IMG/VR virus record: IMGVR_UViG_3300000117_000187
Span: 1 to 27,080 of that record
From: a virus
Direction: 5' to 3' (one strand)
DNA length: 27,080 nucleotides
The notes beneath the pieces were generated by a model that searched no databases, was not told where the DNA came from, and saw only the letters and a program-made list of their open reading frames with translations. This document shows, one piece after another, positions 1 to 23,400 of this stretch; position 1 is the stretch's first letter; each line of letters begins with the position of its first letter. A program made the translations under genes and the position numbers.

Positions 1-442
1 GGTCGGAATTCATAATATCCTCTCCATATGCATTTTCCCAAGCATCAATAATGTCCTTTGCATTATACTTTTTAGCTTCACTCACTTGTTGGCTATTTAA
101 TCCACCTATAAATTTTTTGAAGTTTGACATCTTCTTTTTCTTTTTTTTATATTCTTTTTTAGCATCTCCTTTACCAGCAGGTACATCTCCAGATCCAAGT
201 AAACCGTCAGCTGGTAATTCAATTGGTCCCATACCGTTAATTTGACCTACCTGAATATTTTCAGGTACTGTTTCTGGTAACCCTTCGTGTTTAGTTGCTG
301 CGAATTTCTTAAGTTGTACAAGAGTCATAGAATCTGCAAGATCTTTAACCTCTTGACTAGCTTCTTTAGAATCAAGTTCACCCTTCTTATAAGCGTAAGC
401 CATTCCCATTAATCTTTGTTGTACTTTACTAAGAGCAGGCAT
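1..442 (-). CDS. DUF3008-like protein fused to a capsid-targeting-like segment (3'-truncated)
   Basis: The gene starts at ATG 442 and runs off the window, so 147 codons are visible and the C-terminus is missing. Residues 1-62 (MPALSKVQQRLMGMAYAYKK, then KFAATKHEGLPE) match what I know of the DUF3008 family, a small protein of phages and bacteria with no established function. A low-complexity region with a poly-lysine tract (about residues 94-104) follows. A new segment then begins with Met105, MSNFKKFIGG, followed by VSEA at 120-123 and an acidic helix. That segment resembles a T4 capsid-targeting peptide followed by a gp21-type cleavage site, here internal rather than N-terminal. ATG 130, which encodes Met105, sits behind a purine-rich AAGAAAAAGAAG and could be an internal start. 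The gene begins 1 base past the stop of the 698-residue gene. Reading frame is sure, family likely, function unknown. Confidence 0.8.
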   Translation of the reverse strand, partial: MPALSKVQQRLMGMAYAYKKGELDSKEASQEVKDLADSMTLVQLKKFAATKHEGLPETVPENIQVGQINGMGPIELPADGLLGSGDVPAGKGDAKKEYKKKKKKMSNFKKFIGGLNSQQVSEAKKYNAKDIIDAWENAYGEDIMNSD

Positions 443-443
443 T

Positions 444-2540
444 TTACCAAACGTAATCCATTTTTTCAACCTTTGCTATTCTATCTTTAAGTGATTTAGC
501 CTCTTGTTTGATTCTTTCTTCATAATAATGAGAACTTGTTAAACCAGACTGTGCTTCATTAGAATAACGTACATAATCTTCGAAGTCACTTAAAATATTA
601 GACATATGATTAGAAGCATCTCTCATTTTAACACCTCTGCCCCTAGGATCTCTACCAATAATAGGAGAACCATTTTCTATCTCATTTTTAGCTATACCTT
701 GCTTAATTTGCTCAGCCATTGTATCAATTGCATCTTTAACCATTTGATCTAATGGAAGTTTTGATGCCTTATCAGCTAAAATTCCTTTATATCGGCTTAT
801 ATTTTCTTTTTTAAAGTCCCTATCTGATTTAAAAGCAATTGCACCTTTCTTGGCAGCTGCCCTATCAGCCATCTTTCCAGCAGTTGAATACTTATCTCTA
901 AGTACTGAGATATCTAAAACAATCGCTCTATCTGCAACCTCTGAAATTCTCTTAGGATTATAAAGGCCTGTTGAATCCCAACCTTTATATTTTTTACTAA
1001 TGCCTACGCTATCAACTGGTTCGCTAGACGCTAAAGTTCTTCCTCGACCACTCGAAGTACGCCCCCATGCCATACCTTGGAAATTATTGCCTTTAACAAT
1101 AGACAATATACCAGCTGGGATAGTTTTTTGCCCTTCGTAATCTGCGTAAGGGTTTTCTTTTTGTTGATCTACTATATAGAATATAACATAGCGATTATCT
1201 TTATCTTTTCTAGTTATTGCATGTGCCTCAGCTGCACCCATATCGATTAGATCTTCGTCCTCTACTTTATCTAAAGCAACATTTGCCATATTATAAAATG
1301 CGCTAGGTAGTTCCTTTAAGCCCCTAGAAGACCAGTTACTAGAAATTTTAGTATTAAAAAGTTGAGCTAATTTGGCTGACTTAAAAGCCTCGTTAACATC
1401 TTCTCCTACTTCGATAGAATTTGATTCAACTGGCTCAAACATTCTTTGTGCTGATTTAAATTCTTCTCTATGAAAATGTCTTAAGTAAGTTCTAACCGCA
1501 TCGTCTACTAAACCATCATAATTAGTTTTATATTCAGGCCATTCTTCCCAATATCTATCAACTGCGCTTTCAGCTGCATCTCTTAATTTTTTATCAAACG
1601 GAGATGGCATATTTTTAGGCTTTCTAATCATATGGTGAATTACTTCACTCATAGCATAGTTATCAGAAGACCCCCATTCATTAACTGCCTCTTCATTTAG
1701 AGAAGCAATAAACTCTCCGAACGATTCTAATGTCGGTTGCGGTTTTGTGCTATCTTCGGTTTCTTTTATGACATTTTCATTTATTATTTCAGACTCTAAA
1801 ACCTGAAGTCCCAATTCTCTACCGTCTTTGGTTTTAGCAATTGCGTATTTCCACTCTTTTTCTTTTTCATCCCAAAGATATACATACTCTGCTCCATCAT
1901 TTGCTACATCTTGTAAATAATCGTATAAGTCTTCTAAACTTCTTTTTTGAATCATATTATAAGTTTTCTCACCTCTGTCTCTACCATAAAATACAGTTTG
2001 ACCGTCTATTGGAGAATTAAAATGATGGCCTTTACCGCCTTCAATACCAGGCTCTAAATATGAAATACCGTTCTTTCCAAGCTTTAATAGCTCTTTCATC
2101 TTTTTAGTATCAGAAAAATGGTCTTTTGCTATTTGACCTACGCCTTCTGGATAACCATCGCTATGGACATATGTAGATTGAATAACTCCTCTTCTATCAA
2201 TTATGCCAATTTGTGAACGTGTTGACTCTAAAATAAAACTTTCATTTTCATTTATTGCAAAAGTTTTAAGAACTCTTTTACCGAATCTTGATAATGTAAC
2301 ACCTTCTTCAGATACATTAAAGTACTTTGCGTTTCTAGTCATCCATCTTTTAGAGTCATTACTAAATTCAGACAAGATAGTATTAAATTCCTCTTGTGTT
2401 AATTTGCCATCGGCAAGAGCTTCTATCATTTTGTTTCTAACAGATGCGGTTAAACCCGCTGTAATAGAAGGATGATTTTCAGTGTATTGTCTTTTTAAGA
2501 CTATACCTTTCTTTTCGTTTAGGAAATCTTCGAATTTCAT
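444..2540 (-). CDS. Multidomain 698-residue protein, likely internal virion protein
   Basis: I do not know its function. The N-terminus MKFEDFLNEKKG resembles T4 capsid-targeting peptides, and LNE at 7-9 fits the [LI]xE site of the gp21 prohead protease. Residues about 108-192 (HSDGYPEGVG at 127-136, YGRDRGE at 185-191) match a domain I recognise from many phage and bacterial hypothetical proteins. A second targeting-like peptide, ESFGEFIASLNEEAVNE, lies at 272-288 between domains. VNEA at 382-385 precedes a third region (383-590) containing FKSAKL, a beta-strand-rich core and a helical basic segment. The C-terminus (590-698) is helical and charged, ending MDYVW. ATG 2540 is preceded, 18 bases upstream, by the 14-base element also found before the gene at 6319. 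It probably sits in the head with its neighbours (inference); an ADP-ribosyltransferase-like role, as in T4 Alt, is not supported by any motif I could find. Confidence 0.85.
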   Translation of the reverse strand: MKFEDFLNEKKGIVLKRQYTENHPSITAGLTASVRNKMIEALADGKLTQEEFNTILSEFSNDSKRWMTRNAKYFNVSEEGVTLSRFGKRVLKTFAINENESFILESTRSQIGIIDRRGVIQSTYVHSDGYPEGVGQIAKDHFSDTKKMKELLKLGKNGISYLEPGIEGGKGHHFNSPIDGQTVFYGRDRGEKTYNMIQKRSLEDLYDYLQDVANDGAEYVYLWDEKEKEWKYAIAKTKDGRELGLQVLESEIINENVIKETEDSTKPQPTLESFGEFIASLNEEAVNEWGSSDNYAMSEVIHHMIRKPKNMPSPFDKKLRDAAESAVDRYWEEWPEYKTNYDGLVDDAVRTYLRHFHREEFKSAQRMFEPVESNSIEVGEDVNEAFKSAKLAQLFNTKISSNWSSRGLKELPSAFYNMANVALDKVEDEDLIDMGAAEAHAITRKDKDNRYVIFYIVDQQKENPYADYEGQKTIPAGILSIVKGNNFQGMAWGRTSSGRGRTLASSEPVDSVGISKKYKGWDSTGLYNPKRISEVADRAIVLDISVLRDKYSTAGKMADRAAAKKGAIAFKSDRDFKKENISRYKGILADKASKLPLDQMVKDAIDTMAEQIKQGIAKNEIENGSPIIGRDPRGRGVKMRDASNHMSNILSDFEDYVRYSNEAQSGLTSSHYYEERIKQEAKSLKDRIAKVEKMDYVW

Positions 2541-2558: not shown

Positions 2559-2572
2559 CTTTTTCTATATAT
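2559..2572 (-). promoter_or_regulatory. 14-base element ATATATAGAAAAAG upstream of the 698-residue gene
   Basis: On the minus strand ATATATAGAAAAAG ends exactly 18 bases before ATG 2540. The same 14 bases occur 18 bases before ATG 6319. It overlaps the end of the preceding gene's TAA stop. The AT-rich first half could be a phage late -10 type promoter (T4 late consensus is TATAAATA, so not identical), and the purine run could aid ribosome binding. Which of the two it is cannot be told from sequence. Confidence 0.45.
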
Positions 2573-4413
2573 TAAGATTTTAAAAATTGGCTAAACGTCA
2601 TTAAATCAGAAACTGACTCTACAGTTGACATTGATTGTTCTAGCGTATTTTTAAGTACAGGATACATTGAATGTATCTCTTTAGGTGTTAGCTTTTTAAA
2701 TAATTTTTCATCATCATCTAACATTGCGTTTCTAACTTGAGTAGCTGATATATTCTTGCCAGTTCTTGGAATTTCAAATAATCCAAAGTCTTCTCTGACC
2801 CCTAAATCATCCCTATATTCTTGTTTATCTACTTGATATCCATAAACCTTCATTCTATCTGAGCCAGTTCCCCAAAGAACCGGTTCATATTTAGGTCTCA
2901 TCATATTAAACATTTTATCTATTGCTGCTGTTGGAACAACAAATACTTCTTGAATAGGATATTTTTTCTTTAAGTTTTGTAGCATCTCAATTTGAAGTTC
3001 TTCAGAGTAAGGTCTTTTAAATGCATCTTCTTTCTTTTTATTCTTAGACTTAACTAGGAATATGACAATAGGATGACCATTTTGCTTATGTATAGTTTCT
3101 ATAACTTTAGCATGACCTAACGTGAAAGGCTGAAATCTACCAACAAACATATTGACCGGCATTTTACCTTGATTTGGATATTCAACGTTTAACGCTTCTG
3201 TTATAGGGCTAATTTGAGTATTTAACTTTTCTTGCTTTAAATATGTATTAAATGTCATAATCTCTGATTCATTCTTTTTTGCGAAAACAGTAGCTTCTAT
3301 TCTTTTAACAATAGAATTCATCTGTAACATTAGATCTTGATTAATAATCTTAGTTTCCTTTATTCTCTTTTTTCTAAATGAGCCTAACATAATCTTATAC
3401 AATTCGGATAAATCTTTATTTTGTATAATTTTTATTGTATTTTCGTTTTTAATAAAATCTCTATTTAGTTCAAACCCAGGTTTACTAGAAAAACTAGCAG
3501 AATCAAATTCTGCACCGACATATTTTACTGCGTTCTTGTTAATATATTTATTAAATATTTCAGAAATCAATTCAATATATCTTAAATCAGTTTCTTCTTC
3601 AACTAACTCTATTTTATCTAAGTTAACTTGAGTTAAATACTCAACAAGATCTAATATAGCAATTTGATACATGTCAGAAGACTCTCTATTGGTTTCTTCT
3701 ACTTTATCAAATCGGCCTAACTTAAAGTTTTTAATATTCTTCTTATCAATAAATGACAATATAAGAGAGTCTATGTCCCCGTCAAGACTTTCATTTAAAG
3801 CTGACTTATTCAACATATTGTTAAATATAGTATAAACCTTTCTAGTAAATGAATTTGATTTAAATGCGTTTTCAAACGCTTGATCATTCATTTCTAATAA
3901 TTCAACAAGCTGATCTTTTTGATTAGAGTCTAAAACTCCATCAAATATAATAGGCGGAGATTGAACTTCAAGTATATTTGCCCATTTTTCTAATATCTTA
4001 GGATCTCTAATAACTTTCTTGATTTGAGACTGATCAGCTGGATTTAAAACCTGAATGTGTGTAAGGATAAGATTATTTTTAGGAAGTAAATCATATTTAA
4101 TGTCTATAGTCTTAACATCGGTCATATAATCAAACCCAAACTTCCAGTTCGTAGGCATATCTTTCCTAGATTCATTAGAAATAGATTTAAAATAATCAAT
4201 TGCATTCTCATAATATTTTACAATTGTTCTATCTACCTTATTCATTGGCGTTTTAGAACCACTCTTATAATAGTCGTATTCTTTATCTGTTTTTCTAACA
4301 TGAAAAGAAGATGCTTGAATCTTTTCAGTAACCAAACACCTTTGTTTTAATAAAGACGTAAACTCGTTTCTATTAGTCGAGTTAAAGTAAGTTCTTAGAT
4401 CTTGTAATGCCAT
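2572..4413 (-). CDS. Ligase-like domain fused to NMNAT-type nucleotidyltransferase
   Basis: The C-terminal domain (about 420-600) is an adenylyl/cytidylyltransferase of the NMNAT/NadM type. GRFQPFTLGH at 425-434 is the GRFxPxHxGH signature with Thr for the first His, and ISATQVR at 555-561 is the ISxTxxR motif. This fold transfers a nucleotide from NTP, typically making NAD from NMN. The N-terminal half looks like a degenerate nucleotidyltransferase of the ligase fold: EKIQASSF at 30-37 in place of KxDG, then YKSGSK (49-54), KFGFDYM (91-97) and LILTHI (115-120). Between the domains lies MTFNTYLKQE (386-395) followed by ITEA (404-407), a capsid-targeting-like peptide plus gp21-like site. A sister copy, MTFSQFLKS, is the extreme C-terminus (605-613). 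The start overlaps the upstream stop as TAATG. NMNAT fold is confident; ligase relation, substrate and packaging are inferred. Confidence 0.8.
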   Translation of the reverse strand: MALQDLRTYFNSTNRNEFTSLLKQRCLVTEKIQASSFHVRKTDKEYDYYKSGSKTPMNKVDRTIVKYYENAIDYFKSISNESRKDMPTNWKFGFDYMTDVKTIDIKYDLLPKNNLILTHIQVLNPADQSQIKKVIRDPKILEKWANILEVQSPPIIFDGVLDSNQKDQLVELLEMNDQAFENAFKSNSFTRKVYTIFNNMLNKSALNESLDGDIDSLILSFIDKKNIKNFKLGRFDKVEETNRESSDMYQIAILDLVEYLTQVNLDKIELVEEETDLRYIELISEIFNKYINKNAVKYVGAEFDSASFSSKPGFELNRDFIKNENTIKIIQNKDLSELYKIMLGSFRKKRIKETKIINQDLMLQMNSIVKRIEATVFAKKNESEIMTFNTYLKQEKLNTQISPITEALNVEYPNQGKMPVNMFVGRFQPFTLGHAKVIETIHKQNGHPIVIFLVKSKNKKKEDAFKRPYSEELQIEMLQNLKKKYPIQEVFVVPTAAIDKMFNMMRPKYEPVLWGTGSDRMKVYGYQVDKQEYRDDLGVREDFGLFEIPRTGKNISATQVRNAMLDDDEKLFKKLTPKEIHSMYPVLKNTLEQSMSTVESVSDLMTFSQFLKS

Positions 4414-5690
4414 TATCTACCGTATTTTATTATCCCCATTAATTGATTAATTGCAGCAAAAGTACCTGTTAATTTCATAGTCTTTCCTTTATACACAAAA
4501 ACTATTCCTTCAGTTGGTATGATAGATTCTACTCCTCCGATTCTTTCTAATCTTTCTAACTCTTTCATTACTTTTTCAATTTGAGCAACGCTTCCGTCTT
4601 TTTTGATCTTTTCAGACTCTAATCTAATTTGATTATGTAGTCTTTGCATTTCTTTGTCTGGATTTGCTGCTACAAAATTAGAAGCGTTCTTAAGAATTAT
4701 AGATCCTAGTTCTAAGAATAAATCTTCAAACGGTCTAATGTTTTCTTTATATTTCTTTTTAACATCTTCTTTGTCAAATTTCTTAACAGAAGCCGCTTCA
4801 TCTTTTCCTATCTCTTTTGCAAGGCTTCTCATATTTAAAGACTTTTTATCTCCATAAGCCCATCTTAATAGTAAACCTTCTTTATAGTCTTGTTGTAAAT
4901 CTGGAAAATTTGCATCTATTGTTTCTCTCCACCACATTTCGTGATATCTAGAAACTTCGTCGCCATCTGTTAAGCTATAACGGTCTCTTAATTTTTCAAT
5001 CTGCTTTATAAATTTAGCTTGATTTTTATCAAAATTAATATCTTTACCTAGTTTTAAAACCTGAGGGGGAATTATTGTAAATGTTTTTTGAACATCCGCA
5101 TCTACTTCTTTTAAAGCTTTAACTAATTCCCCTGCTATTTTTCTACTACCTGTAATATTACCATTTCCATCAGTTTCTTGAATATCATGGAATTGAAGGA
5201 CATCTCTTTCATAATATATTACGTTCGGGTTTTTAGAATAGATTAATTCTATATTTATAAAGTCTTTACCGTCGTTAAATACGGATTGATCTTTTATTTT
5301 TGGTAAGGCATCTGCTAAATCAGTTGCTGCAAAAATATATGTTTCTTCTACTAATTTAGAAGCATGACCTGTAAACATATCAATAATTCCTTGTAAATCT
5401 ACAGGGCTAATCAATTGACCTTTATTTCTAGAAAACATTGTCACTCCATCCTTTACAGTTGCAAGAAGATTTTGACCATCTGTTTTTTCAGTGGCTACCT
5501 CTTCGAAGTTTAACTCTCCTTGAAGGCCTGATGTTACTATCTTTTTAAAATCTGCAAATGTTAAATCTTTTTCATCAAAGGGATGAGACATGTGACCAGC
5601 TGCACCACCCTCCATAACAAGAGAATAGCCTATTTCAATAGGCTTACTTTTCTCTAATAAGAATTTTTTATATGATGCTATTTGTTTCAT
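4413..5690 (-). CDS. KxDG ligase-fold nucleotidyltransferase (RNA-ligase-like)
   Basis: The protein carries the ordered motifs of the covalent nucleotidyltransferase superfamily (ATP RNA/DNA ligases and capping enzymes). Motif I is EKTDGQN with K69 as the presumed AMP-accepting lysine, Ia is SRNKG (87-91), III is NIELIY with E148, IIIa is LQFHDI (165-170), IV is TEGIVF (393-398) and V is KTMKLTG (403-409). About 220 helical residues, including an EGLLLR that could compete as motif IV (271-276), separate IIIa from IV; this is longer than in compact ligases. The first 14 residues, MKQIASYKKFLLEK, resemble a capsid-targeting peptide with LLE at 11-13 as a gp21-like site, followed by a Gly-rich MEGGAAGHMSHP. 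Both ends are TAATG junctions with neighbours, so it is co-translated with the NMNAT fusion downstream. Nick sealing of RNA, as in tRNA repair, is plausible but the substrate is unknown. Confidence 0.75.
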   Translation of the reverse strand: MKQIASYKKFLLEKSKPIEIGYSLVMEGGAAGHMSHPFDEKDLTFADFKKIVTSGLQGELNFEEVATEKTDGQNLLATVKDGVTMFSRNKGQLISPVDLQGIIDMFTGHASKLVEETYIFAATDLADALPKIKDQSVFNDGKDFINIELIYSKNPNVIYYERDVLQFHDIQETDGNGNITGSRKIAGELVKALKEVDADVQKTFTIIPPQVLKLGKDINFDKNQAKFIKQIEKLRDRYSLTDGDEVSRYHEMWWRETIDANFPDLQQDYKEGLLLRWAYGDKKSLNMRSLAKEIGKDEAASVKKFDKEDVKKKYKENIRPFEDLFLELGSIILKNASNFVAANPDKEMQRLHNQIRLESEKIKKDGSVAQIEKVMKELERLERIGGVESIIPTEGIVFVYKGKTMKLTGTFAAINQLMGIIKYGR

Positions 5691-6319
5691 TATCCTAATG
5701 AGCTTTGTAGCATACCTACAGCTTCACCAAAGTCTCCATCTACTTTACCAATTATACCGTCTATGACTTCACCCGCTTTGGCTTCATCATATTCGTCGCC
5801 AAACGCATTTTTTAAAACGGTTTCAGCATATTCTCTAAACTCTTCTTCAGAATTTACTTCCGCTTCATTTACGTCAACAGACTCGCCTAGTCCAGTGGTT
5901 AACATACCGATTGCAGCGCCATAATCTCCATCGACTTTGCTTAAAATACCGTCTACTGTTTCCTGTGCTTTGGCTTCATCAAAATTATCTCCAAATGCTT
6001 TTTGTAAAACTGAAAAGGCATATTCTTTAAACTCTTCATCTGAAGTGACTTCAGCCTCATTTACAGAATATACATCCTTTAGTTTATTAATTATATAATC
6101 GATGTCTTCATTTACTTCTGTACCTTTTAATTTATCAAAGAATGAAATTCTTTGCTCCTCATCGAGTTCATTTAGGTCAGTGACACCGTATTCTGCAAGA
6201 AGAGATTTAAATGTTTCAGCGCTAGAAGATCTTTTAGCGTCTTGTGCCTGTTCTAGTTCAAGTTGAACTTGTTGTTTTCTAGCAGCAGCGAAGCTGTTAA
6301 AGTCTTGTAATTTATCCAT
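5690..6319 (-). CDS. Acidic repeat protein, candidate prohead core or internal head protein
   Basis: Function is not established. The N-terminus MDKLQDFNSFAAARKQQ is amphipathic and resembles a capsid-targeting or scaffold leader. Residues 35-75 form a helical acidic module (FKSLLAEYGV). Two tandem 60-64 residue repeats follow, at 86-149 and 150-209. Each opens with VNEAEV, continues EEFxEYAxxVLxxAFGD, DEAKA and KVDGD, and closes with a GML hydrophobic turn. The VNE/A at each repeat start fits the (I/L/V)xE type of site cut by T4 gp21 protease, so the protein may be cut into repeat-sized pieces during head maturation (inference). It is highly acidic, as T4 core proteins often are. The start is ATG 6319, behind an A-rich leader carrying the shared 14-base element. 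The stop overlaps the next start as TAATG. Confidence 0.75.
   Translation of the reverse strand: MDKLQDFNSFAAARKQQVQLELEQAQDAKRSSSAETFKSLLAEYGVTDLNELDEEQRISFFDKLKGTEVNEDIDYIINKLKDVYSVNEAEVTSDEEFKEYAFSVLQKAFGDNFDEAKAQETVDGILSKVDGDYGAAIGMLTTGLGESVDVNEAEVNSEEEFREYAETVLKNAFGDEYDEAKAGEVIDGIIGKVDGDFGEAVGMLQSSLG
5693..6064 (-). repeat. Two tandem about 64-residue protein repeats
   Basis: Within the acidic protein, residues 86-149 and 150-209 align along almost their whole length (VNEAEV, FGD, DEAKA, DGI, KVDGD, GML). The period is 64 residues, or 192 bases. The DNA copies have diverged, so this is an old duplication kept at protein level rather than a recent one. Confidence 0.85.
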
Positions 6320-7877: not shown

Positions 7878-8303
7878 TTACAGATCCTTTAATGCTAATC
7901 TGTTTCGGATGGCAAATCCCATATTATCTAGGGTTTTTACCGATTCTTTTAAGAATTCAAGTTGATTCTCTAAGTGTGCAAGTATTGTGTTTTCGTCAGC
8001 AAGGTCTGCTTCCATAAACATTATTTTTTGTTTTTCACCTAATTTGTAATCATATTCATAGTATTTAATATAAGCCTCTCTGCTTCTATTAGCTAACCTA
8101 GCTTTTTGATCTCTAATTTTGGTGTTTATATATGCAACTTGATCAATTAATTGTTGTCTAGAAGAAAGCACGTTTGCTATAGTTTCTTCCATACCATTAA
8201 TATATTTCAAACTAGCTGCAAGCTCTTTGATGTTATTGGACCATTCGGCTCTTTGCTTACCCAATCTCTCGTCTATTTCTAATATTTTAGATTTACTACT
8301 CAT
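7878..8303 (-). CDS. uvsY: UvsY-like recombination mediator
   Basis: At 141 residues this is close to T4 UvsY (137). It is predicted almost entirely helical and charged. The C-terminal DNMGFAIRNRLAL (126-138) resembles the T4 UvsY end, which reads SRGFAIKH. The central RSREAYIKYYEYDYKLGE (73-90) parallels the basic, Tyr-rich stretch of T4 UvsY before its acidic linker. UvsY is a ring-forming mediator that helps load UvsX recombinase on gp32-coated single-stranded DNA. Position between a gp32/primase block and uvsW is what a UvsY should have. The ATG directly abuts the stop of the 73-residue gene (TAAATG), so translation is probably coupled. Identity overall is low, so the call rests on length, the two segments and context. 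Confidence 0.65.
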   Translation of the reverse strand: MSSKSKILEIDERLGKQRAEWSNNIKELAASLKYINGMEETIANVLSSRQQLIDQVAYINTKIRDQKARLANRSREAYIKYYEYDYKLGEKQKIMFMEADLADENTILAHLENQLEFLKESVKTLDNMGFAIRNRLALKDL

Positions 8304-8525
8304 TTAGAATAATGATTTTTTATTTGAATTTGGTTTTACAAAAACGCTTGCCTTCTTTTTCTTTTTAAACTTAGGTTCAATTTTTTTAGTTTCAGGTAAC
8401 TCAACGTCATATTCGGCGCTTTCAAAGTCAAGTAATAACTTATGTCCTTTAAATCTCTTGCCATCTTCGTAGAAATTATCTAAATCTTCTTCAACCATTC
8501 TAGTTATATCTTCTATACGTACCAT
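8304..8525 (-). CDS. Small basic protein of unknown function
   Basis: At 73 residues I do not recognise it with confidence. The first half is acidic (EDITRMVEEDLDNFYED) and the second strongly basic (KFKKKKK at about 52-58), ending NKKSLF. The first residues faintly recall the UvsY N-terminus (MRLEDL in T4), but the real UvsY candidate is the next gene. A gp33-like late transcription role is a position-based alternative: in T4 gene 33 lies downstream of 32 and its product contacts the sliding clamp through a hydrophobic C-terminal peptide, which SLF could mimic. Neither idea is proven. The start overlaps the primase gene by 13 bases and the stop abuts the UvsY start, so the frame is well placed inside the operon. 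Confidence 0.65.
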   Translation of the reverse strand: MVRIEDITRMVEEDLDNFYEDGKRFKGHKLLLDFESAEYDVELPETKKIEPKFKKKKKASVFVKPNSNKKSLF

Positions 8526-9583
8526 AGATCTAATTGGCTTGTAGTGAAATATTCATTTATACGCTTATAAGCCCTAGATCCCTCTCGGTAACAAACAATC
8601 ATAAGATCGTTTAAATCTTTTATGTTATATGTATCTAACTCATTTTCTTTAAGGAATTTAGACCACATAAAAACTGGTCTGCCCTTTTTAAGTTTTTCTG
8701 CCATCTTTTCTTTTCCAGTTTTATCATTATCAAACATATACCTAACTGTGGCCATTTCATCAAACTCATTAGTTGACCGACCTGCTGTTGCTAACGCTAA
8801 AGAGTTAGTCATAAACTTAGAATCTAGTGGACCTTCAAATATAGTTACATCTCTTTGAAAATTAACTTGCATAATACCGAATAAAGTTGATACTTTACTT
8901 ATGCTTACTAAAACGTCTTCATCTATATTAATCTCTATATTCATTTCTTGGTACAGTTTAGGTAGATCATATGTCAAATACCTAGATCCTTTACCTTTCA
9001 TTCTTCTACTTTGTACAGATAAAATATTACCAGTTGGCGTCAAATTTAATATCCAAAGTTTTTGATCTCTTTCAGAATACAGAAATTGATCTGACATATG
9101 GTGTAATAATCTTTCTTTTAGCTTGAACCAAATCCAATCGCCCGGTGTAATTTCTTTTGCTTTAAAGAAAGATTTAAATTTATCTATAGGAATAGCCAAT
9201 TCATCTGCCTTAGAAAATACACTATGTTTAATTGTTTCTATTTTCTTAACACTTCGTTCATTAGTTTTTATATAATCTATAACATCGAATGAATCGCCAG
9301 TATTAGGCAGCCTAACATCATGATCTCTTAAGAAAGAATATAAATTAGTGTGATGACTACAATTATAGCAATGATATTGAAGAGTGTCCCAATAAATGTT
9401 ACCTCTCTTTTTAGTATCATCAGTATGTGAATCACCACAATAAGGACATGCAAGGGTTATTCGCCCATGCATGTCCCGTAGTGTTTGCTTATTAGAAGCC
9501 GAGTGCTCTTGTACTACTACTTCTTTAAGCGCTGACTTTATCTTGTGTTTTAGATCCTCTGTAAGATTAGATATCGAGGTCAT
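8513..9583 (-). CDS. DnaG-type DNA primase (T4 gp61-like)
   Basis: At 356 residues it is close to T4 gp61 (342). The N-terminal zinc ribbon is complete: ACPYCGDS with C46 and C49, then YHCYNC with C72 and C75. A TOPRIM-type catalytic region follows, with IFEGPLDSKF (about 248-257) supplying the first acidic residue and MFDNDKTG (about 284-291) the DxD metal site. It would lay down RNA primers for lagging-strand synthesis with the replicative helicase, which is not in this window. The gene overlaps the end of the gp32 gene by 17 bases and the next gene by 13, so SSB, primase and recombination factors form one operon. No Shine-Dalgarno sequence is visible, and initiation may depend on translational coupling. 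Confidence 0.92.
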   Translation of the reverse strand: MTSISNLTEDLKHKIKSALKEVVVQEHSASNKQTLRDMHGRITLACPYCGDSHTDDTKKRGNIYWDTLQYHCYNCSHHTNLYSFLRDHDVRLPNTGDSFDVIDYIKTNERSVKKIETIKHSVFSKADELAIPIDKFKSFFKAKEITPGDWIWFKLKERLLHHMSDQFLYSERDQKLWILNLTPTGNILSVQSRRMKGKGSRYLTYDLPKLYQEMNIEINIDEDVLVSISKVSTLFGIMQVNFQRDVTIFEGPLDSKFMTNSLALATAGRSTNEFDEMATVRYMFDNDKTGKEKMAEKLKKGRPVFMWSKFLKENELDTYNIKDLNDLMIVCYREGSRAYKRINEYFTTSQLDLWYV

Positions 9584-10487
9584 TCAAGAAAGAGTCAAGG
9601 TCATCATCTGTGTTGACAGCTGCTGTGTCTGTAGATGCTGACTCGGTTTTAGTAGCTTCAGCTGTGACTGGAGCAGGAGTCGTCTTCTTAGCTTCTTTCT
9701 TAGGTGCTGCAGAAGGGGTAACATGCTCGATAGAATCTCCTGGATTCAAATACATACGAAGTACGTTGTTAACGAATTCTCGAGTATCTTCGTCCCATGC
9801 GTTGTAGTCATACATAGAAAGATCAGGTGCAGACTCTAATTCTGTCTTGATGGTTTCCATTGTTTCTTTACTACGTTCAGCTGGTTCACCTGCCACGATG
9901 ATTGAAGAACGAGAAGCAGAGAACTTAGACTTGTCATAGTTGTTATATTCACCTTGACGTGTAATAATCAACTCGAAGTTTTTGCCTTCGAACAAATCAA
10001 ATACCTGTGTTGGTTCGCCAAAGTCTGGCTTCAACTCTGCATCGATCTTTTCCTTGATCTTGTATCCGAATTTGAATACTTTGTATTGACCTTCAAGATC
10101 TGGATTCTGAGGATCCTTAATGATCTTGATTAGTGCGTAGTACTGTTGACGGCGCTTAAGCTTATCTGACGCTTTACGTTCGACAGCTGAATCGGATTTA
10201 CGAAGCTTCCAAAATACATCTGCAATTGGGCACTTTTCTCCGACTGAAGATGGTGAGTCTACGATCTTACCATCGCCGTTTGAATCAACCAACCAGTGTA
10301 CATACTTCTGAACCAGAGAGTTACGTGGGTTAGTTGGATTTGGAACAAAGCGAACTAGTGCTTTATACGTTCCGTCCTTACCGTCATCTGCGGTAGGCTT
10401 GTAAACCTCATTAGCTGAGGTGCTTACTTGTTGTGTGTGAGTTTCTACGTCCTCTACACCGAGATTGAAAATGTCAAAATCTGCCAT
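9567..10487 (-). CDS. gp32-like single-stranded DNA-binding protein
   Basis: At 306 residues it matches T4 gp32 in size (301) and order. The OB-fold core aligns with T4 over LVRFVPN, KRRQQYYALIKIIKDPQNP, EGQYKVFKFGYKIKEKI and NNYDKSKF. A low-complexity linker and the acidic tail DDDLDSFLNDLDI follow; that tail recruits other replication proteins in T4. Two features differ. Of the T4 zinc ligands (one His, three Cys) only H64 and C86 have counterparts, so zinc binding is probably lost. The N-terminus is acidic and lacks the basic KRKST-type motif that T4 uses for cooperative binding. The gene is richer in G+C than its neighbours, with Arg CGT and C-ending codons, as expected for a very highly expressed protein. 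An 80-base unstructured leader precedes it, and primase overlaps its end. Confidence 0.92.
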   Translation of the reverse strand: MADFDIFNLGVEDVETHTQQVSTSANEVYKPTADDGKDGTYKALVRFVPNPTNPRNSLVQKYVHWLVDSNGDGKIVDSPSSVGEKCPIADVFWKLRKSDSAVERKASDKLKRRQQYYALIKIIKDPQNPDLEGQYKVFKFGYKIKEKIDAELKPDFGEPTQVFDLFEGKNFELIITRQGEYNNYDKSKFSASRSSIIVAGEPAERSKETMETIKTELESAPDLSMYDYNAWDEDTREFVNNVLRMYLNPGDSIEHVTPSAAPKKEAKKTTPAPVTAEATKTESASTDTAAVNTDDDLDSFLNDLDI

Positions 10488-10567: not shown

Positions 10568-10783
10568 TCAGAAAAATAATCTAGATTCTCCATGTCCATT
10601 TGTACTTACTTGTTTCCAGCTGCTATCCTCTAGCTTAATCAGCCCTGATTTGTGTAGTAATTCTTCTTTATCTTCAAGAGATATAGCGTTACTTGACACC
10701 ATTTTATTGAGGATCTTATTGAGCTGAAAGAACTCATAAGTACATAAGTCCATGTCAAAATTGTTATAACTTTTCATCAACAT
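10568..10783 (-). CDS. Small protein of unknown function
   Basis: It is 71 residues from ATG 10783, or 69 if the second in-frame ATG at 10777 (MKSYNNF) is used. It is mixed alpha-helical with no signal or membrane segment, and I do not recognise it. The C-terminus GESRLFF is a short hydrophobic tail on a polar background, reminiscent of sliding-clamp-binding peptides in T4-type proteins such as gp33 and gp55. That is only a resemblance. It lies just upstream of the gp32 leader and downstream of the RuvC-like gene, with intergenic gaps on both sides, so it may belong to the replication gene group. Confidence 0.6.
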   Translation of the reverse strand: MLMKSYNNFDMDLCTYEFFQLNKILNKMVSSNAISLEDKEELLHKSGLIKLEDSSWKQVSTNGHGESRLFF

Positions 10784-10807
10784 ATATTATATATCCATAT
10801 TTAAATA

Positions 10808-10824
10808 AGTTTCTAAATGAAACT
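10808..10824 (-). other. Weak hairpin in the ruvC-71 aa intergenic gap
   Basis: On the minus strand AGTTTC and GAAACT pair over a five-base loop (ATTTA), followed by TTATTT. With six base pairs, two of them G-C, it could be a weak terminator for the structural operon. It could equally be chance in AT-rich DNA. The rest of the 72-base gap (10784-10855) is AT-rich and holds nothing else I can support. Confidence 0.25.
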
Positions 10825-10855
10825 AAATGTGGAAACTAGCATACAATAATTGGTT

Positions 10856-11554
10856 TTAGGTTGAAGGAGAAGAATTGGTTCTTTCCTTAAATGCTAAAAG
10901 GGCTGAAAGAAAGTAAGCATCTATCAAATCATCCACTGGTTTAGGAATCTTTTTCTCTGCATCTATATCTTTGCATGCATGAAAGAAATTTCCTTTAAGT
11001 AGATATTTATCATTATTTACATTTGCTAAAAAGGCCTGACATAATTGAACTTTATTCATATTACCTTTACCTGCAAATTTCTTAATTGTAGTAGGTGCTA
11101 TAGTCTGAATATCTTCTGGCTTAAGGGCTTTTAATATTTTAAGTTTAAGTATAGAAGCTCCGGAGGCCATGTCAATAATATTATTAGTACTTCTTTTAGA
11201 TCCATAAGAAGACCCCTCAAAAGCTACTACATAGCCATCACTTTGATGAGAGTCTTGTAAAATAAGATTAATGATATCATCGGCCATTTTATCATATCTC
11301 TTTATCTTTTGTAATTCTTGACTAGAATACTCGCTACTTAAAGTAAAGTCAGGCTGATAAATTAACGTTACATCTTTCAGTGTAGATATCTCTTCTTGAA
11401 ATGCTTGCTCAGCTTTAGTTCCAGTCTTAGGTTTAATGTAACTTATAAAATGATATCTTTTGCTTTTATCATTATAAATACAAATGCCTGGAGAATTAAG
11501 AGAAAAGTCTATTGCTACGTAATTCACTTTAGAACTTTTTACCAATTGCAGCAC
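10856..11554 (-). CDS. RuvC-like Holliday junction resolvase
   Basis: The protein has the RNase H-like fold signature of RuvC resolvases. The first strand is YVAIDFSLNSPG with D16, the second acidic residue is in VVAFEGSSYGS (E113), TTIKKFAGKGNMNKVQL (155-171) parallels the RuvC P..vKk..G.G.a.K stretch, and the last motif PVDDLIDAYFLS supplies D208/D209 and D212. It would cleave four-way junctions or branched DNA before packaging, a job T4 gives to the unrelated gp49. The start is GTG at 11554, supported by AGGAG nine bases upstream. A later GTG (11527) would remove nine residues before the first strand. The start lies 26 bases inside the upstream gene's end. The C-terminus is short and polar. 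Fold call is good; exact substrate is inferred. Confidence 0.82.
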   Translation of the reverse strand: MLQLVKSSKVNYVAIDFSLNSPGICIYNDKSKRYHFISYIKPKTGTKAEQAFQEEISTLKDVTLIYQPDFTLSSEYSSQELQKIKRYDKMADDIINLILQDSHQSDGYVVAFEGSSYGSKRSTNNIIDMASGASILKLKILKALKPEDIQTIAPTTIKKFAGKGNMNKVQLCQAFLANVNNDKYLLKGNFFHACKDIDAEKKIPKPVDDLIDAYFLSALLAFKERTNSSPST

Positions 11555-11897
11555 CTAACGCAGCTCCTACTAATCTAGAAGTTAGTAGATCATATAAAAT
11601 ACCTTTATTTATACCTAATACTCTAGCTATAACTTTACCAACTGATTTACCTAATGCAAATCCAGTTAAACCGCCTAGAATACTTCCAAGTATACCTTCA
11701 TTAGTCATTTCTTCATTGAATCTATCAATGTCATAACTACCATCTTCTAATTTATATTCAGAAACAAAATCTTCTATAGCTTCATCTACTTTAGATTCTA
11801 ATTCATCTGACCATTCGCTTTGAAGACCTTCATTTAGTATCTTCATTTCTTCAACAGTAATGTTCTGTTCTTTAAGGTATTCTAAAAATGTTTTCAT
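11529..11897 (-). CDS. Small glycine-zipper protein with capsid-targeting-like N-terminus
   Basis: At 122 residues this belongs to no family I recognise. It starts MKTFLEYLKEQ, strikingly like T4 internal proteins (MKTYQEFIAE in T4 IPs), with gp21-like sites at LKE (8-10), LNE/G (21-24) and NE/G (67-68). The middle (25-66) is strongly acidic. The last 55 residues are two Gly-rich hydrophobic segments (about 69-95 and 105-119: ILGSILGGLTGFALGK and LVGAALGAAIGK) with GxxxG spacing typical of helices packing in membranes. One reading is a packaged, processed membrane-active peptide delivered at infection; another is a holin-like or tail-associated protein. It sits 10 bases after the tube-like gene and overlaps the RuvC-like gene by 26 bases. 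Confidence 0.75.
   Translation of the reverse strand: MKTFLEYLKEQNITVEEMKILNEGLQSEWSDELESKVDEAIEDFVSEYKLEDGSYDIDRFNEEMTNEGILGSILGGLTGFALGKSVGKVIARVLGINKGILYDLLTSRLVGAALGAAIGKKF
11564..11568 (-). promoter_or_regulatory. Shine-Dalgarno AGGAG deciding the GTG start of the resolvase
   Basis: AGGAG on the minus strand lies nine bases before GTG 11554, inside the coding sequence of the preceding gene. Clear Shine-Dalgarno sites are rare in this window, so this one supports the non-ATG start. Confidence 0.5.
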
Positions 11898-11907
11898 GTC
11901 TTATATA

Positions 11908-12459
11908 TCAATCTATTTCAATCTTGAGATTTAACTTATTATAAAAGAAAGTAACCTCAAATGTACTAAATTCTGCTACGTTTTCTGCAAAATTTAAATT
12001 AAGTTCGTTAATTGAATTCATAATAGGTTGTTCGAATACCATCGATGCCATACCTATTCCTTCAGCATCCATAATCCTCATAGTTAAATTATCTGTAAAT
12101 GGATCTTCCGTTGATCTAGCATAATAATATAATAGAGTATCCATCATTATCCAATAATTTACATAACCATCTAAAAGTTGCATAGTAACTGTAAATTGTC
12201 GTTCAACCGTATTTTGTATTGGAACAGCTCCTCTATGATATCTAGTAGTACCATCATTATCCGCCTGAGATATAGGATCAAATGAAACACCTGGAACATT
12301 AAGACCTTGAATAGAGTAATTTACAAAATCTATAGGCCTTTGCATTAAATTACCTGGCATTCTATTTAAATACTTAACGTATTTGTTAGCAACTTCTTCA
12401 GGTATAAAATTCCTAGGAAACCTAAAAGAAAATAAATTATTTCTAGAATTTAAAATCAT
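11908..12459 (-). CDS. T4 gp19-like tail tube / tube-baseplate junction protein
   Basis: At 183 residues it is near the size of T4 gp19 (163). The clearest link is the C-terminus: INELNLNFAENVAEFSTFEV parallels the T4 gp19 stretch in which GELQLDW is followed by IQTFEVT. Upstream, VERQFTVTMQLLDGY followed by an aromatic helix (WIMMDTLLYYYA) fits the strand-helix layout of the tube fold, and YSIQGLNVPGVSF fits the loop before it. Proteins of this fold form the inner tube of contractile tails or its first ring on the baseplate (gp48/gp54). I cannot say which; location after large tail and baseplate genes rather than beside a sheath gene favours a junction or completion role. The start overlaps the previous stop as TAATG. 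Confidence 0.6.
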   Translation of the reverse strand: MILNSRNNLFSFRFPRNFIPEEVANKYVKYLNRMPGNLMQRPIDFVNYSIQGLNVPGVSFDPISQADNDGTTRYHRGAVPIQNTVERQFTVTMQLLDGYVNYWIMMDTLLYYYARSTEDPFTDNLTMRIMDAEGIGMASMVFEQPIMNSINELNLNFAENVAEFSTFEVTFFYNKLNLKIEID

Positions 12460-14549
12460 TATTCAATGGTAAATTTTCCGTGAGCAATAACAGTATCATC
12501 GGAACCACTCTTAGACGAAATGTAAAATTGCTTATTTTGCATACCTCTAATAGAAATAGCATTAGCTGAATCTATTTTAAACAACACTTCACCTTTACCT
12601 AAATCTATATCTTTACTTCTTTGATGATTAAAGATCTTTTTAGAACCTCCGTCTTCGAATGATAATACAATGTCGTCAGATCCAGTTAAAGACACTTGAT
12701 CTAGTTCGTCTCCATTTTGTTTAGCTACATAAAATTTAAAATATGTTGTAAAAGGAGGAACATATATTTCAGCGTCTCCACTTGCTTCATACTTAGGAGT
12801 TTCTAAATCTTCTACTTCGTCTGGCGGCAATTCAGTATTATCATTACTCGTAATTGACACGGGTACATTTGCTACCACTATATTAGAAGTTTCTATAAAC
12901 GTAGGTACATATCTAGTTGATTTAGGTAAAGAATTATTGATTAATCCCCTAACTGCTCTATTAGCTGATAAATTAGGTAAAGTATTATATACTTCTGTTA
13001 ATTTAGTAGCTGAGTTTATATTAACACTTTGCATTCGCTTTGCATATTTAGCAGCTCTGTCAAATGTTAAACTAGCTCTTTTTACTATTTGAGTGTTATC
13101 AGTCTCGTTGATAATTTTCATAACAACGTCTATTGAAAAGTTAACAGCTACATTACCATTAACAATAACAGGCCTAAACCAGATAGGAGTATCAAAATCA
13201 AAAACTTGAGTAAACGTAGTATCGTATGTTTTAATTTGAGAAACACCGACCTGTTCATACACTTCTACATCATATGAAACTATAATATCGTCAGACGAAG
13301 TATTTATTCTATTTAAAATATAAGCTTCAAATGCAGCAGCATTATTGTCTTTTTCTCCGTATATCTTAAAATAATCTCCATCTTCTGCTTCTTCTACAAC
13401 TACTGTAAAATCAGTATATTCGTCTTCTCTACTAATACTAAATGTATTAGTTTCAGCTACATAAAAATAATTATAGTCATCTATATTCTCTAGTCTATCA
13501 ATAAGCTTAAAACTAATTTCATAATTAGACGTTGAACTTAAGTTAGAAGTTTGGTTAGAAGGACTATCAACTGTACCGTTTCCATAGAAGAAATCTTCAA
13601 ACTCATAATTTTGATCTACTAAAGTCGGTACTTTTAAATTTACAAACTTGGTAAATAACGTTTCACCTAAAAGGAAAGGCTTAGGATTAGAAACTTCATA
13701 GTTACTTTGATTTAAATAAACCAATTGAGTTAGGTAGTTTTTAATACCATTATCTCGTTCTGTCTTAACTTCGAATAAGAAACCTTCATAACCTCTAGAT
13801 GCAAAAGAAAAACCAGATCTTAAATGTAACCTAATAGAATCATATTTAATTTTATTAATTTCAGCAGTTGCGTATGTTTGTGAAGATAATAAATCAGCCT
13901 CATTGGATCCGCTCCAGCCTGAATAAGAATTAATATAATTTAATGGTTGATCGTATAAGCCAGTAACGTCATATCCTAAAAGAGCATACTTAACAGAATC
14001 GTCCACGTGTGGTATAGCATGAAATCTACCTATTAGGTGATTAATATCATTTCCAGTATCTTCATCTGGTGTTGAAAACAAGGGATTGGCCTTATCTGCT
14101 ATTACTATTTTTCCGCCTATTAAATCTTGATATGAATAATTTATAGTGCCATATATAGTTGGAATAAATGTACCAATACCTACAGTACTTAAACTATATG
14201 TTCCAAAGTTAGAATCAATAGTAAATAGAGAAGGATCTGGTAAATTAGAAAGATTAAACTTATATGTTTTGCCAGCTTCTAATAATAATGTTCTACCTGC
14301 AAAGTTTTCAACTGAAAGATATGCGCCTGTAATAGTAACATCAAAGTTAACAACATCGCTACCTAATTCACATATTAAATGATTAATATGTTCTCCATAT
14401 TGGTCGTTTGGGTTTACAGTTAGTTTTTTGATTTCACTACCATTATCATCAACTTCTATCTCATAATCAGAGGGGTTACTTTGATCGTGGTAGATAAACT
14501 CTAACAATACATCGTCATCTATTCTAAAATATCTAGAAGATTGAGCCAT
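12459..14549 (-). CDS. Beta-rich tail/baseplate structural protein, unidentified
   Basis: I choose ATG 14549, giving 696 residues starting MAQSSRYFRIDDDVL. It forms a TAATG overlap with the preceding stop, like three other junctions here. An in-frame ATG at 14579 would add ten basic residues and overlap the previous gene by 31 bases. The protein is beta-rich, acidic and without signal or membrane segments, as expected for a virion part. Residues about 76-151 (AGKTYKFNLSNLPDPSLF, then GTY and a TINYSY strand) form a module that recurs in the giant tail protein. The middle contains long strand-rich segments such as IRLHLRSGFSFASRGYEGF, and the C-terminal 100 residues look like a separate small beta domain. 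Its position between the fibre-type genes and a tube-like gene suggests tail or baseplate; no T4 counterpart is recognisable to me. Confidence 0.8.
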   Translation of the reverse strand: MAQSSRYFRIDDDVLLEFIYHDQSNPSDYEIEVDDNGSEIKKLTVNPNDQYGEHINHLICELGSDVVNFDVTITGAYLSVENFAGRTLLLEAGKTYKFNLSNLPDPSLFTIDSNFGTYSLSTVGIGTFIPTIYGTINYSYQDLIGGKIVIADKANPLFSTPDEDTGNDINHLIGRFHAIPHVDDSVKYALLGYDVTGLYDQPLNYINSYSGWSGSNEADLLSSQTYATAEINKIKYDSIRLHLRSGFSFASRGYEGFLFEVKTERDNGIKNYLTQLVYLNQSNYEVSNPKPFLLGETLFTKFVNLKVPTLVDQNYEFEDFFYGNGTVDSPSNQTSNLSSTSNYEISFKLIDRLENIDDYNYFYVAETNTFSISREDEYTDFTVVVEEAEDGDYFKIYGEKDNNAAAFEAYILNRINTSSDDIIVSYDVEVYEQVGVSQIKTYDTTFTQVFDFDTPIWFRPVIVNGNVAVNFSIDVVMKIINETDNTQIVKRASLTFDRAAKYAKRMQSVNINSATKLTEVYNTLPNLSANRAVRGLINNSLPKSTRYVPTFIETSNIVVANVPVSITSNDNTELPPDEVEDLETPKYEASGDAEIYVPPFTTYFKFYVAKQNGDELDQVSLTGSDDIVLSFEDGGSKKIFNHQRSKDIDLGKGEVLFKIDSANAISIRGMQNKQFYISSKSGSDDTVIAHGKFTIE
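14097..14324 (-). repeat. Module shared with the giant tail protein (copy 1)
   Basis: This codes for residues 76-151 of the 696-residue protein. It shares the pattern G-x-TY-x-FNL-xx-L-[DE]x?PSLF-x-I...GTY...YSY..I..G.I.I with bases 19561-19803. The two copies have diverged at DNA level. Gly-TY-x-F openings resemble cupredoxin-like or carbohydrate-binding beta modules common in phage fibres, but no ligand residues are evident. Confidence 0.7.
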
Positions 14550-20400: not shown

Positions 20401-23400
20401 ATTAGTATTTTCATAAGTTTCATATTTAAGTTCTTTAAGATCAGAATTAGAAGTATCATAAAAATCATAACCCATATCATACATATCATATGCAGATAAA
20501 AGGCCTATCTCTGCTTCATATTCTGAAAAGACTTTAAATTCTCCACTTCCTAAATTATGCCTATTTTTAAGAACTATTTTTAAATAATCGCCTGTTATAT
20601 CATCTATATTTTCTACTATATCTATGACTTCGTTATATGTAGAGGTAGATTTTGTATTAATGTACTCACCTGCTTTTATTCCGCCTAATGAATCTTTAGA
20701 AATCAAAACAGATTTACCATCTGAATGACCTCCAATCATATAATGGACATTCCAATCATTTTTTATATCATCTATTATGTCTAATCTGTTGGATTCATCT
20801 AAATTATCTATATCACAGAACACATTAGGATTATCTTTCTTTATTAATACGCCAAATTGTCTTCTATCATATCCTATGTTATTTTTAGAATATACATAAA
20901 TCACACCTTTAGAATTAACAACACCTAAACCATCTTTATTCTTAATTGCAGAAGATAAAGCTATTAATACATCGTTTATATTACCTACGTTTGAGAATCT
21001 AGAACCGCTAAATCTACCCTTAGGTATAGAATCATCAGCCGTTAATATATTCTCTAATAAATTAAAATGTGAATAGTTTTCAATAACTTTAACAACACAA
21101 GCCGGATTGGATGTCGTAATATTTATATCGTGATTTGAAATTGCTCTGTTTCGTTCTTTTATAAACGCAACATTATTTTCTATATCAACTATAAAATAAG
21201 TAGAGTTATTAAGTACTGGTTCACCTGTGCTTTGATCAAAAAGATTAGGATGAAGAACATTCTTTATATTATTCAATGCTTCTTCAGCGTTTGATCCTGT
21301 AGAAACAGCTATGGTTTGAACAGTAGGATATGAAATATTAATAAATATTGTAGTATTCGGTATATGATTAATAAATTCTACACAATATGATTGTTGTTTT
21401 ATTTCTGGAAATGCTATTCTAGATCCGTTTTCAGGTATATCATTAATGCTTACTTTTACAAAGTCATATCCTATACCCTGTTTTTCTAATAGACCGACCG
21501 TACGGTTAGTGTCTTTTATACCCACATAACGATTTATTGAATCGTTATTATCACTTATTTTTAAAGTATAATTTTCAGCGTCCCATGAAGCTCCATTTAA
21601 TATATTGTGATAATGTGAATCACACTTAACATATCCTAATACAGGTATGTCACTCATCATTTGACTAGAAGGTATAGCAAATGTATTTTTATCAAACAAA
21701 GATCCTTCTAAATTGTCATAGTACATGTTAGAAGTTAAATCCTTGAACTTAATTAAACCTTTACTAACTCTTTCTATTTTACCCTTTCCTGAAGGAATTT
21801 CATCCACGTAAAGACCAAAGTATCTATTTACGGAATAATCTTCAGCTTCTATATCATCAAACATAAATTCTAAATTGATAATATCACCTGATATAACTCT
21901 ATTCCTCTTAAAGCCATCAGTAATAAAATCATTAGCTTCAATAAGCGGCTTATCAGTTGCTACATAATCATCATAAATATACTCACCCTTATTGGTAAAA
22001 CCTCCCTTTACGAGATCTATTCCATTATAAAACGTTTGTTCATTTTTTTCAAAAGATACAGTAAGAGGAGAGCTATTAAAATCTTCACTAAATACATGAT
22101 GTCTTATGTATGTTCCTAATTTTGAAGTCTCGCTTAAATCAAATGTTTTAATTATAGTTGCATTAGATAACATATCGCTAATTCTATCTCGTTTATCAGA
22201 TGCACTGTCGTTTAAACTACGATTCTGTTTAGGAGAAGATATTCGATATATTACAAATGATTTAGGTATGTTTAAATCTAGTTTAATAGGTGCAAATATT
22301 CTAAAATTTTCATCATACAATTTTGATTTATTAAATCTTACGCCATATTGATATTCATCTTCAAACTGTAAATCATAAGACTCTAAAACAGAGAAATCAG
22401 AAGCGGTTCTTTTAGTTTCATAAACCATATCATATGGTGTTCTATTATCGTTAAAGAATCTAGAAACATCATACACATATGAACTATCTGAACTTACACC
22501 ATATCGTTTATATCTAGAATCTGCTAACTCTTTATTAGCATTTATAGACTCTAAATATATTTCTCCAACTGATGAAGTAACTAGTTTTACATTTCCAGTA
22601 AGCCTAGGATTAGTCCTTAATAGTGGTTTAGATACGTTATGTAAATTGTAGTTTTCTTCTAAATTAAATTTAGGTAAAGGATCTGCATTTTGAGATTCTT
22701 CAGTAAATGAAGAGAATGTATAAGGGTTACTGTTAGTAAAATCTATACAGTCTTGGCAATATGGCTCATCGTTAAAATAATATACAGTACCTTCGCTTAG
22801 TATACCAATAGTATTTGTGCTAACGTATTGTGTATTTCCTTGAAAATAACCTAAAGTAGCCATTGAAACTGCAGCTTCAGCTGGAGAAGACGCATATATT
22901 CTACCTAATAACTTTTTACAACCATATTTTAAGTCTGTTGAATCAAAACTAAAGAATGTAGAGTTAAACCCTATTTCTTCAGCAAATTCAAACATGTGGC
23001 CCGACGTGACTTGATTAGTATGCGAACCGAACACTATATAGTTAGAATAAACTCCATTTATCGGTATACATGATGTAAATACATAAAAAGCTAATAGTTC
23101 TCCATCGTTACTTATGCCCGTTTGATTAATAATTTCAAAACTAGGATCAGGAAATAAATTAGAATTAGGTGTTAAATTACATTCAATATAATCAGTTATA
23201 AACGCAGATGATTCTTGGCCTTCTTCATTAAGACCTATCCAGTTTCCACCTGTTTCATCTACATTATTTAACCACTTATAATAATAAGACGTATCATCTG
23301 AATATGAATCATTACTTATTGGTATTGACAGATTAATGTCTTTATATAAAGTTATGCCATATTGAACAATTTGATGTATATCAAAATTTAAGTCAGCATG

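Follow-up and report, generated by a model that had tools for sequence, protein, structure and literature searches.

The window analysed here, a virus fragment of 27,080 bases, carries on its minus strand an open reading frame for a protein of 698 amino acids, which was confirmed at 444-2540. We describe the product as a leader followed by four modules (A1, the DGYPE domain, C and D). The features of this gene and its neighbours are as follows; an arrow marks a join or predicted cut, and all lie on the minus strand.

444..2540, minus: predicted head-cargo polyprotein, 698 aa, with homologues in related loci
2514..2540, minus: N-terminal leader MKFEDFLNE (residues 1-9), predicted to target the capsid and to be cut after E9, from the positional motif test and the T4 IPIII leader form and L/I-X-E rule (available text of PMC9026906)
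2226..2513, minus: module A1 (residues 10-105, LKRQYTENHP type), placed in other chains at the N-terminus, in the middle (L127) or at the C-terminus (L117, L118)
2226..2234, minus: predicted cleavage site ILE↓S (residues 103-105), with [IL]xE in 16/16 distinct fused DGYPE domains
1794..2225, minus: DGYPE/YGRDRGE domain (phrog_1987, residues 106-249), from profile match, alignments and a model with pLDDT 91
1677..1724, minus: SFGEFIASLNEEAVNE, a second leader-like peptide that spans residues 273-288 and includes LNE and VNE sites, from sequence and shuffle test
1389..1676, minus: module C (residues 289-384, opening WGSSDNYAMS), common to L002-L004, L105 and L106 and missing from other homologues
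1386..1397, minus: VNE↓A site (residues 382-385) ahead of module D, with [LIV]xE in 9/10 distinct module D contexts and varying codons
447..1388, minus: module D (residues 385-698, opening AFKSAKL), present twice in L002; L117-L119, L121-L123 and L127 have it as a leader-tagged gene of its own
2..442, minus: DUF3008 gene, downstream and cut by the window end (PF11450, E 3.2e-10), holding a leader-like peptide MSNFKKFIGGLN and a VSEA site
2572..4413, minus: 613-aa protein with a C-terminal adenylyl/cytidylyltransferase domain (PF01467, E 1.4e-9)
4413..5690, minus: 425-aa leader-tagged protein with a VME↓GGAAGHM join; 11/12 distinct joins fit [LIV]xE, the twelfth having M there
5690..6319, minus: leader-like gene for 209 aa, whose two repeats begin at VNE↓A, from sequence

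A sequence-only reading of this DNA had already pointed to the leader, the second leader-like peptide and the VNEA motif, and all three are present where it placed them. In the 698-aa protein no Pfam family scored above its cut-off and Pfam detected no embedded peptidase domain, while NCBIfam gave nothing up to E 0.1; divergent forms of the domains catalogued for polyvalent proteins may still be present. The full-length model was poor (pLDDT 58.7), structure searches returned nothing at E 0.001 and sequence matches in the PDB were weak only. Module D had no INPHARED match at E 0.01, and none of the defence-system models matched.

The polyprotein gene stands beside replication and recombination genes, not head genes; the T4-like genes adjoining in the window encode a UvsW helicase and a protein with a weak UvsY match. 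The adenylyltransferase-type domain of the 613-aa protein is encoded in one related locus (L002, 5196-6676) by a separate leader-tagged gene, beside another leader-tagged gene, and the 613-aa neighbour is likely to be a second fused cargo gene. The 425-aa protein has a GG[AS]xGHxxHPF core and three INPHARED relatives, one of them annotated as cytidylyltransferase-like, and gave no family match; its EKTDGQN stretch we take to resemble a nucleotidyltransferase motif.

A protein search revealed four loci with homologues of 956, 831, 830 and 956 aa that have the same two ends. The four modules of the window protein are distributed separately in relatives, where modules are duplicated, lost, split into genes of their own or shifted to the neighbouring gene. 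Module D is duplicated in L002. The TRFYAIFQ module lies inside the polyprotein in L005, L105 and L106 and in the downstream DUF3008 gene in L002, L003 and L004, the DUF3008 gene and the polyprotein trading modules among relatives. In L110-L115 the leader is followed by other modules and DGYPE is absent; in L117, L118, L121 and L123 module A1 ends the first gene and the next one opens with a leader, then D; in L127 A1 is found mid-chain in a 925-aa protein and another D forms a separate leader-tagged gene.

The DGYPE domain, alone and fused

The sequence-only reading had described a widespread domain at about residues 108-192, and this is borne out by the searches. Residues 106-239 match phrog_1987 (E 5.3e-20, profile positions 2-121 of 128) and the domain also matches phrog_23089. 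It occurs in 33 INPHARED records, in at least 436 confirmed stretches of viral contigs, the best 80 of which were used, and at 34 loci of genome contigs from bacteria or archaea, some of which may be prophage. The best 80 viral loci together with the other sources gave 78 distinct domains, of which 62 are stand-alone and leaderless and 16 are fused; the leader is therefore not a general property of the DGYPE domain. All seven distinct DGYPE polyproteins (the window, L002, L003, L004, L005, L105 and L106), on the other hand, open with MxFxDFLNE, so that the sequence outcome which would have counted against the earlier reading, close homologues lacking targeting-like peptides, did not occur.

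Stand-alone DGYPE proteins open with M-[A/S/G]-T-[R/N], typically M-[A/S/G]-TRS, and the fused window domain begins (ILE↓STRS) where they begin. Cleavage at this join would produce the same N-terminus as Met removal does in a stand-alone protein. The stand-alone phrog_1987 proteins (T4-like cyanophages GC 66, GAP32_348, CcrPW gp089) have the same domain by profile and alignment, but they are encoded by their own gene, with an M-[ASG]-TRS start and no leader, whereas the window domain is fused behind one. In the records inspected the stand-alone copies sit among small hypothetical genes, and in GAP32 and XbC2 they are a few genes from NAD-salvage genes.

The fused domains form one clade (SH-aLRT 96, on few alignment columns). 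The fusion therefore probably arose once, the join site being retained while the upstream sequence changed, and the 16 joins do not represent 16 events; a reading with several independent fusions was rejected on account of the single clade. AlphaFold2 predicted an alpha/beta fold for the domain (pLDDT 91 on 51 sequences), ordered from the TRS start. The model had no match, the best Foldseek hit having E 0.21 and the best VIA hit Z 3.8, with none at Z >=5, and no sequence relative was found in the PDB. T-R and H-x-D-G-Y-P are conserved and R-D-R-G-E is present in the majority, which suggests a putative binding or active site.

The leader peptide

The leader was examined in genes called on the window, on two related records (G001, G003) and on 114 further loci, 1195 genes in total, of which 444 were non-redundant and 420 of those not cut at the 5' end. 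The motif [FY]xxF[LIV]x(1-2)E lies within residues 1-18 of 62 of these 420 genes, compared with 0-3 genes per later 18-residue window (six windows). Beyond residue 20 the 62 tagged proteins belong to 27 families, unrelated otherwise at E 1e-4; family size contributes to the count because two of the 27 are large (17 and 11). The leader is an N-terminal motif common to otherwise unrelated proteins, and its commonest form resembles MKHVKLFEQFINEA.

The key residues of MKFEDFLNE (F3, F6, L7 and E9) have the spacing of residues 4/7/8/10 of T4 IPIII, and LNE at residues 7-9 closes the leader in the form of an L/I-x-E site. According to the available text of PMC9026906, residues 4 and 7 of IPIII are important in targeting, residues 8 and 10 in processing; T4 gp21 cleaves after L/I-X-E.

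Leader-like peptides are found internally as well. There are 15 in 23 window-type proteins compared with 3.1 in shuffles (maximum 9, 200 shuffles), these proteins being related and so not independent, and 11 in 21 DUF3008-type proteins compared with 1.0 (maximum 5). Some of them, for example KKMKHLKNFESFVNES, look like former gene starts. Similar leaders are present in a 462-kb phage record (LR756500.1), in which the same ILE↓GG join is present in one tagged gene. Another family of leaders, of the M-x-KLKDLLxE type, opens 14/106 non-redundant N-termini (0-1 in later windows); the tagged proteins belong to 10 families and lie near T4-like head genes (L221-L229). No leader of the window type was seen among the head-region ORFs listed for Tenacibaculum phage PTm1, whose capsid protein is ~35% identical.

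Joins between modules and a proposed head-cargo polyprotein

We propose that the gene probably belongs to a T4-like phage and encodes a polyprotein of head cargo, cut at its joins by the prohead protease, with modules that are injected. The leader would carry the polyprotein into the prohead core, where a gp21-type protease would remove it after FLNE and would cut the [L/I/V]-x-E joins, namely ILE↓S (105), the VLE/INE/IKE cluster (249-260), LNE/VNE (283-288) and VNE↓A (384). These cuts would release module A1, the DGYPE domain, module C and module D, the DGYPE domain bearing the same N-terminus as its stand-alone relatives. The pieces would stay with the DNA and then be injected into the next cell, and a DGYPE domain injected in this way would therefore act before phage gene expression; we infer the packaging, cleavage, injection and early action of the modules from sequence. 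More generally, we lean slightly towards the view that such genes are cassette polyproteins, that is, extendable chains of effectors which share a single head-targeting tag and are cleaved in trans by the head-maturation protease, and whose modules are gained, lost and traded at protease sites, so that proteins made post-infection elsewhere would become virion-delivered.

The 698-aa protein holds 14 [LIV]xE motifs, and since a lone [LIV]xE is common it is no proof taken alone. Its density is not raised in leader-tagged proteins (15.6 per 1000 residues vs 21.3 in others). An unlikely but not negligible alternative is that the protein is packaged by its leader and loses only this leader, as T4 internal proteins do, the remainder entering the cell undivided, as a multidomain protein comparable to the polyvalent proteins, with [LIV]xE at the joins belonging to ordinary linkers. 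Large multidomain proteins have indeed been proposed to be packaged whole or freed by embedded peptidase domains (available text of PMC5512222). It also agrees with this alternative that a mirror motif is enriched at module boundaries, as seen in a test with BLAST-defined ends (pairs sharing <=60% of the shorter protein, >=38% identical). This was a second design, replacing one with all BLAST ends that was swamped by split alignments between full-length homologues. [LIV]xE was found at -2 to +6 of 59/99 left ends, compared with 20.4 at random (s.d. 4.2, maximum 32, 500 draws), and at 80/126 right ends, compared with 34.1 (maximum 52); the mirror motif was found at 35/99 left ends (19.6 at random, maximum 32) and 59/126 right ends (32.6, maximum 45), and E-rich joins therefore account for part of the signal.

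The exact placement of the sites, however, argues against simple linkers. In a table anchored on 16 modules the site lies exactly at the join in 66/95 listed contexts, the next best offset having 20 and the mirror motif 0/95. The module starts of this table were picked after the joins had been seen; one of its 17 seeds (A1) found nothing, one module (NAF/RAF) was counted under two seeds, and the 29 misses include 8 stand-alone DGYPE ORFs extended upstream beyond their start and 17 of the NAF/RAF module, mostly one-residue shifts. In all 16 distinct fused DGYPE domains [IL]xE (ILE, ITE, LNE, INE or LTE) stands directly ahead of [GS]TR, with E at P1 and I/L at P3 constant while P2 and the residues upstream vary. 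Loss of the leader only is also hard to reconcile with modules that occur as separate leader-tagged genes, their leader closed by the same site. Recombination at the DNA level on a repeat was considered as the cause of the conserved joins and is disfavoured by the synonymous codons, which vary at the module D join.

We regard as quite improbable that the chain is a core or scaffold component, entering the prohead and being cut into pieces that mostly exit like T4 gp22, gp67 and gp68, making room for DNA, with modules that are merely spacers. T4 gp21 does degrade core proteins, most fragments of which exit (available text of PMC9026906 and PMC9958956), and several leader-tagged proteins lie within a head cluster, but the DGYPE domain is conserved, confidently folded (pLDDT 91) and retained by other phages as a stand-alone gene, and other leader-tagged proteins have enzyme-like domains (adenylyltransferase and ATP-grasp, with GNAT below cut-off).

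The NAF/RAF module (NAFGAARAKAIADG... type), present at L005, L028, L111, L112, L128, L166 and L212, is small and appears repeatedly in cargo chains; it is also part of a protease fusion (L212) and of a protein encoded behind the capsid gene (L166). Its start often follows an [LIV]xE site.

Head genes, the protease and known systems

A relative of 123 kb (G001), whose polyprotein is 83-87% identical to that of the window, has a Peptidase_S77 protein with a long C-terminal part between the portal and the major head protein. Three leader-type genes lie within this portal/protease/head-protein cluster, two by the strict motif and the third with FxxFT. Peptidase_S77 (gp21) was found in 14/23 other records, the remaining 9/23 being related fragments with none; among window-type relatives it was present in 4/13 records, the 9 without it being fragments of 20-60 kb. 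In a second phage group, which has the M-x-KLKDLLxE leader as its own, a tagged DGYPE ORF lies 0.08-4.3 kb from gp21 in 10/10 records searched, which cover 10 of 14 loci (L026-L032, L034, L037 and L039; not L033, L035, L036 and L038). Its product has 151-173 aa in 7/10 loci and 322-455 aa in 3, one of them cut by the contig end. Two of these records, followed gene by gene, have large terminase, T4-type portal, gp21 and DGYPE, with a DUF3008 gene adjoining DGYPE as in the window. By contrast, gp21 was present in 4/20 chosen contigs with a stand-alone DGYPE, twice ~5 kb off and twice >70 kb (linear coordinates), a loose comparison, since many of these contigs may come from phages that are not T4-like. 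It is very improbable that the window protein is not head cargo, its leader being another N-terminal signal or the shared start of cytoplasmic proteins and its modules shuffled by ordinary recombination: the gene does adjoin replication and recombination genes (UvsW and the weak UvsY match), but the leader is present among the head genes of G001, tagged DGYPE lies near gp21 throughout the second-group records searched, and leader spacing and site agree with the T4 rules (available text of PMC9026906).

The sequence-only reading had tied the DGYPE domain to a packaging signal. This is upheld in so far as leader and join resemble targeting and processing signals and the second-group gene is near gp21; it has to be revised in that we see not a single protein with one domain but a chain of interchangeable modules, which in L110-L115 lacks DGYPE.

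Protease fusions of the group have [ILV]xE[SAGT] at residues 156-185 in 61/61 distinct sequences (56 VNES, one VNET, 60 [ILV]xE[SAG]), and PTm1 has an annotated scaffold-protease fusion. HKLYE is found in 65/65 distinct capsid proteins of the group, a motif which we take to lie near the end of the T4 propeptide. This suggests that V, I or L at P3 may be accepted by the protease of this group; the T4 rule, as given in the available text of PMC9026906, names L/I at P3, and V falls outside it. In the C-terminal parts of the protease fusions sites were no more frequent than the mirror motif (5.55 vs 5.30 per 100), and scaffold-like repeats there were dropped as evidence, the mirror motif being equally frequent. 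The host is possibly a member of Bacteroidota, judging only from relatives of the capsid protein.

The proposed polyprotein resembles T4 Ip1-Ip3 and Alt in its short leader with IPIII spacing and its L/I-x-E cut, and in that unrelated proteins are joined only by the leader (available text of PMC9026906 and PMC12373910). The T4 internal proteins are single proteins, Alt being cleaved near both ends (available text of PMC5694885), whereas here several modules stand behind one leader, with sites at their joins, and are traded between genes. Polyvalent proteins are likewise multidomain, are believed to accompany the DNA into the host and are likened by their authors to RNA-virus polyproteins, but in the available text of PMC5512222 their release is ascribed to embedded peptidase domains, while the cutter proposed here would be the head protease in trans. 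In giant phages, phiKZ gp175 and SPN3US gp245 cut head and ejected proteins behind a short motif that ends in E, AXE in SPN3US; these cuts remove propeptides, and the available text of PMC10052503 and PMC5694885 describes no chain of separate cargo. The T4 precedent thus already covers the leader, gp21 and injected cargo, and what would be new is a single chain of several exchangeable cargo modules whose joins carry sites for the head protease. Our searches of the open-access literature listed no description of such a cassette polyprotein or of this leader.

Should the proposed reading hold, a single gene would let a tailed phage deliver several proteins by means of a virus-style polyprotein, and phages would seem to recruit new injected proteins through the addition of modules at protease sites. 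Leader and [LIV]xE would then serve as a rule for reading predicted virion cargo from metagenomic sequence (27 families behind one leader type among the genes covered here), and the widespread, uncharacterised DGYPE domain would gain a testable time and place of action.

Other leader-type genes of G001 are those at 3237-4181, 10668-11312, 11312-11881, 22872-23585 and 100195-101568, where domain searches gave ATP-grasp (PF14243, above cut-off) and GNAT and AAA matches below cut-off. Visual inspection alone suggests an ADP-ribosyltransferase for the gene starting at 10668 and a metallopeptidase for the one at 22872, neither having a Pfam or PHROG match; also by eye, 7920-8255, 8267-10123 and 12071-12895 could encode a small heat-shock protein, a DnaK and a DnaJ. 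At L042 and L053, in each case ~5 kb from gp21, the DGYPE protein lacks a leader and has a long C-terminal part, for a total of 311 and 290 aa; these may be genes of the head region that do without this leader, or early genes placed there by accident.
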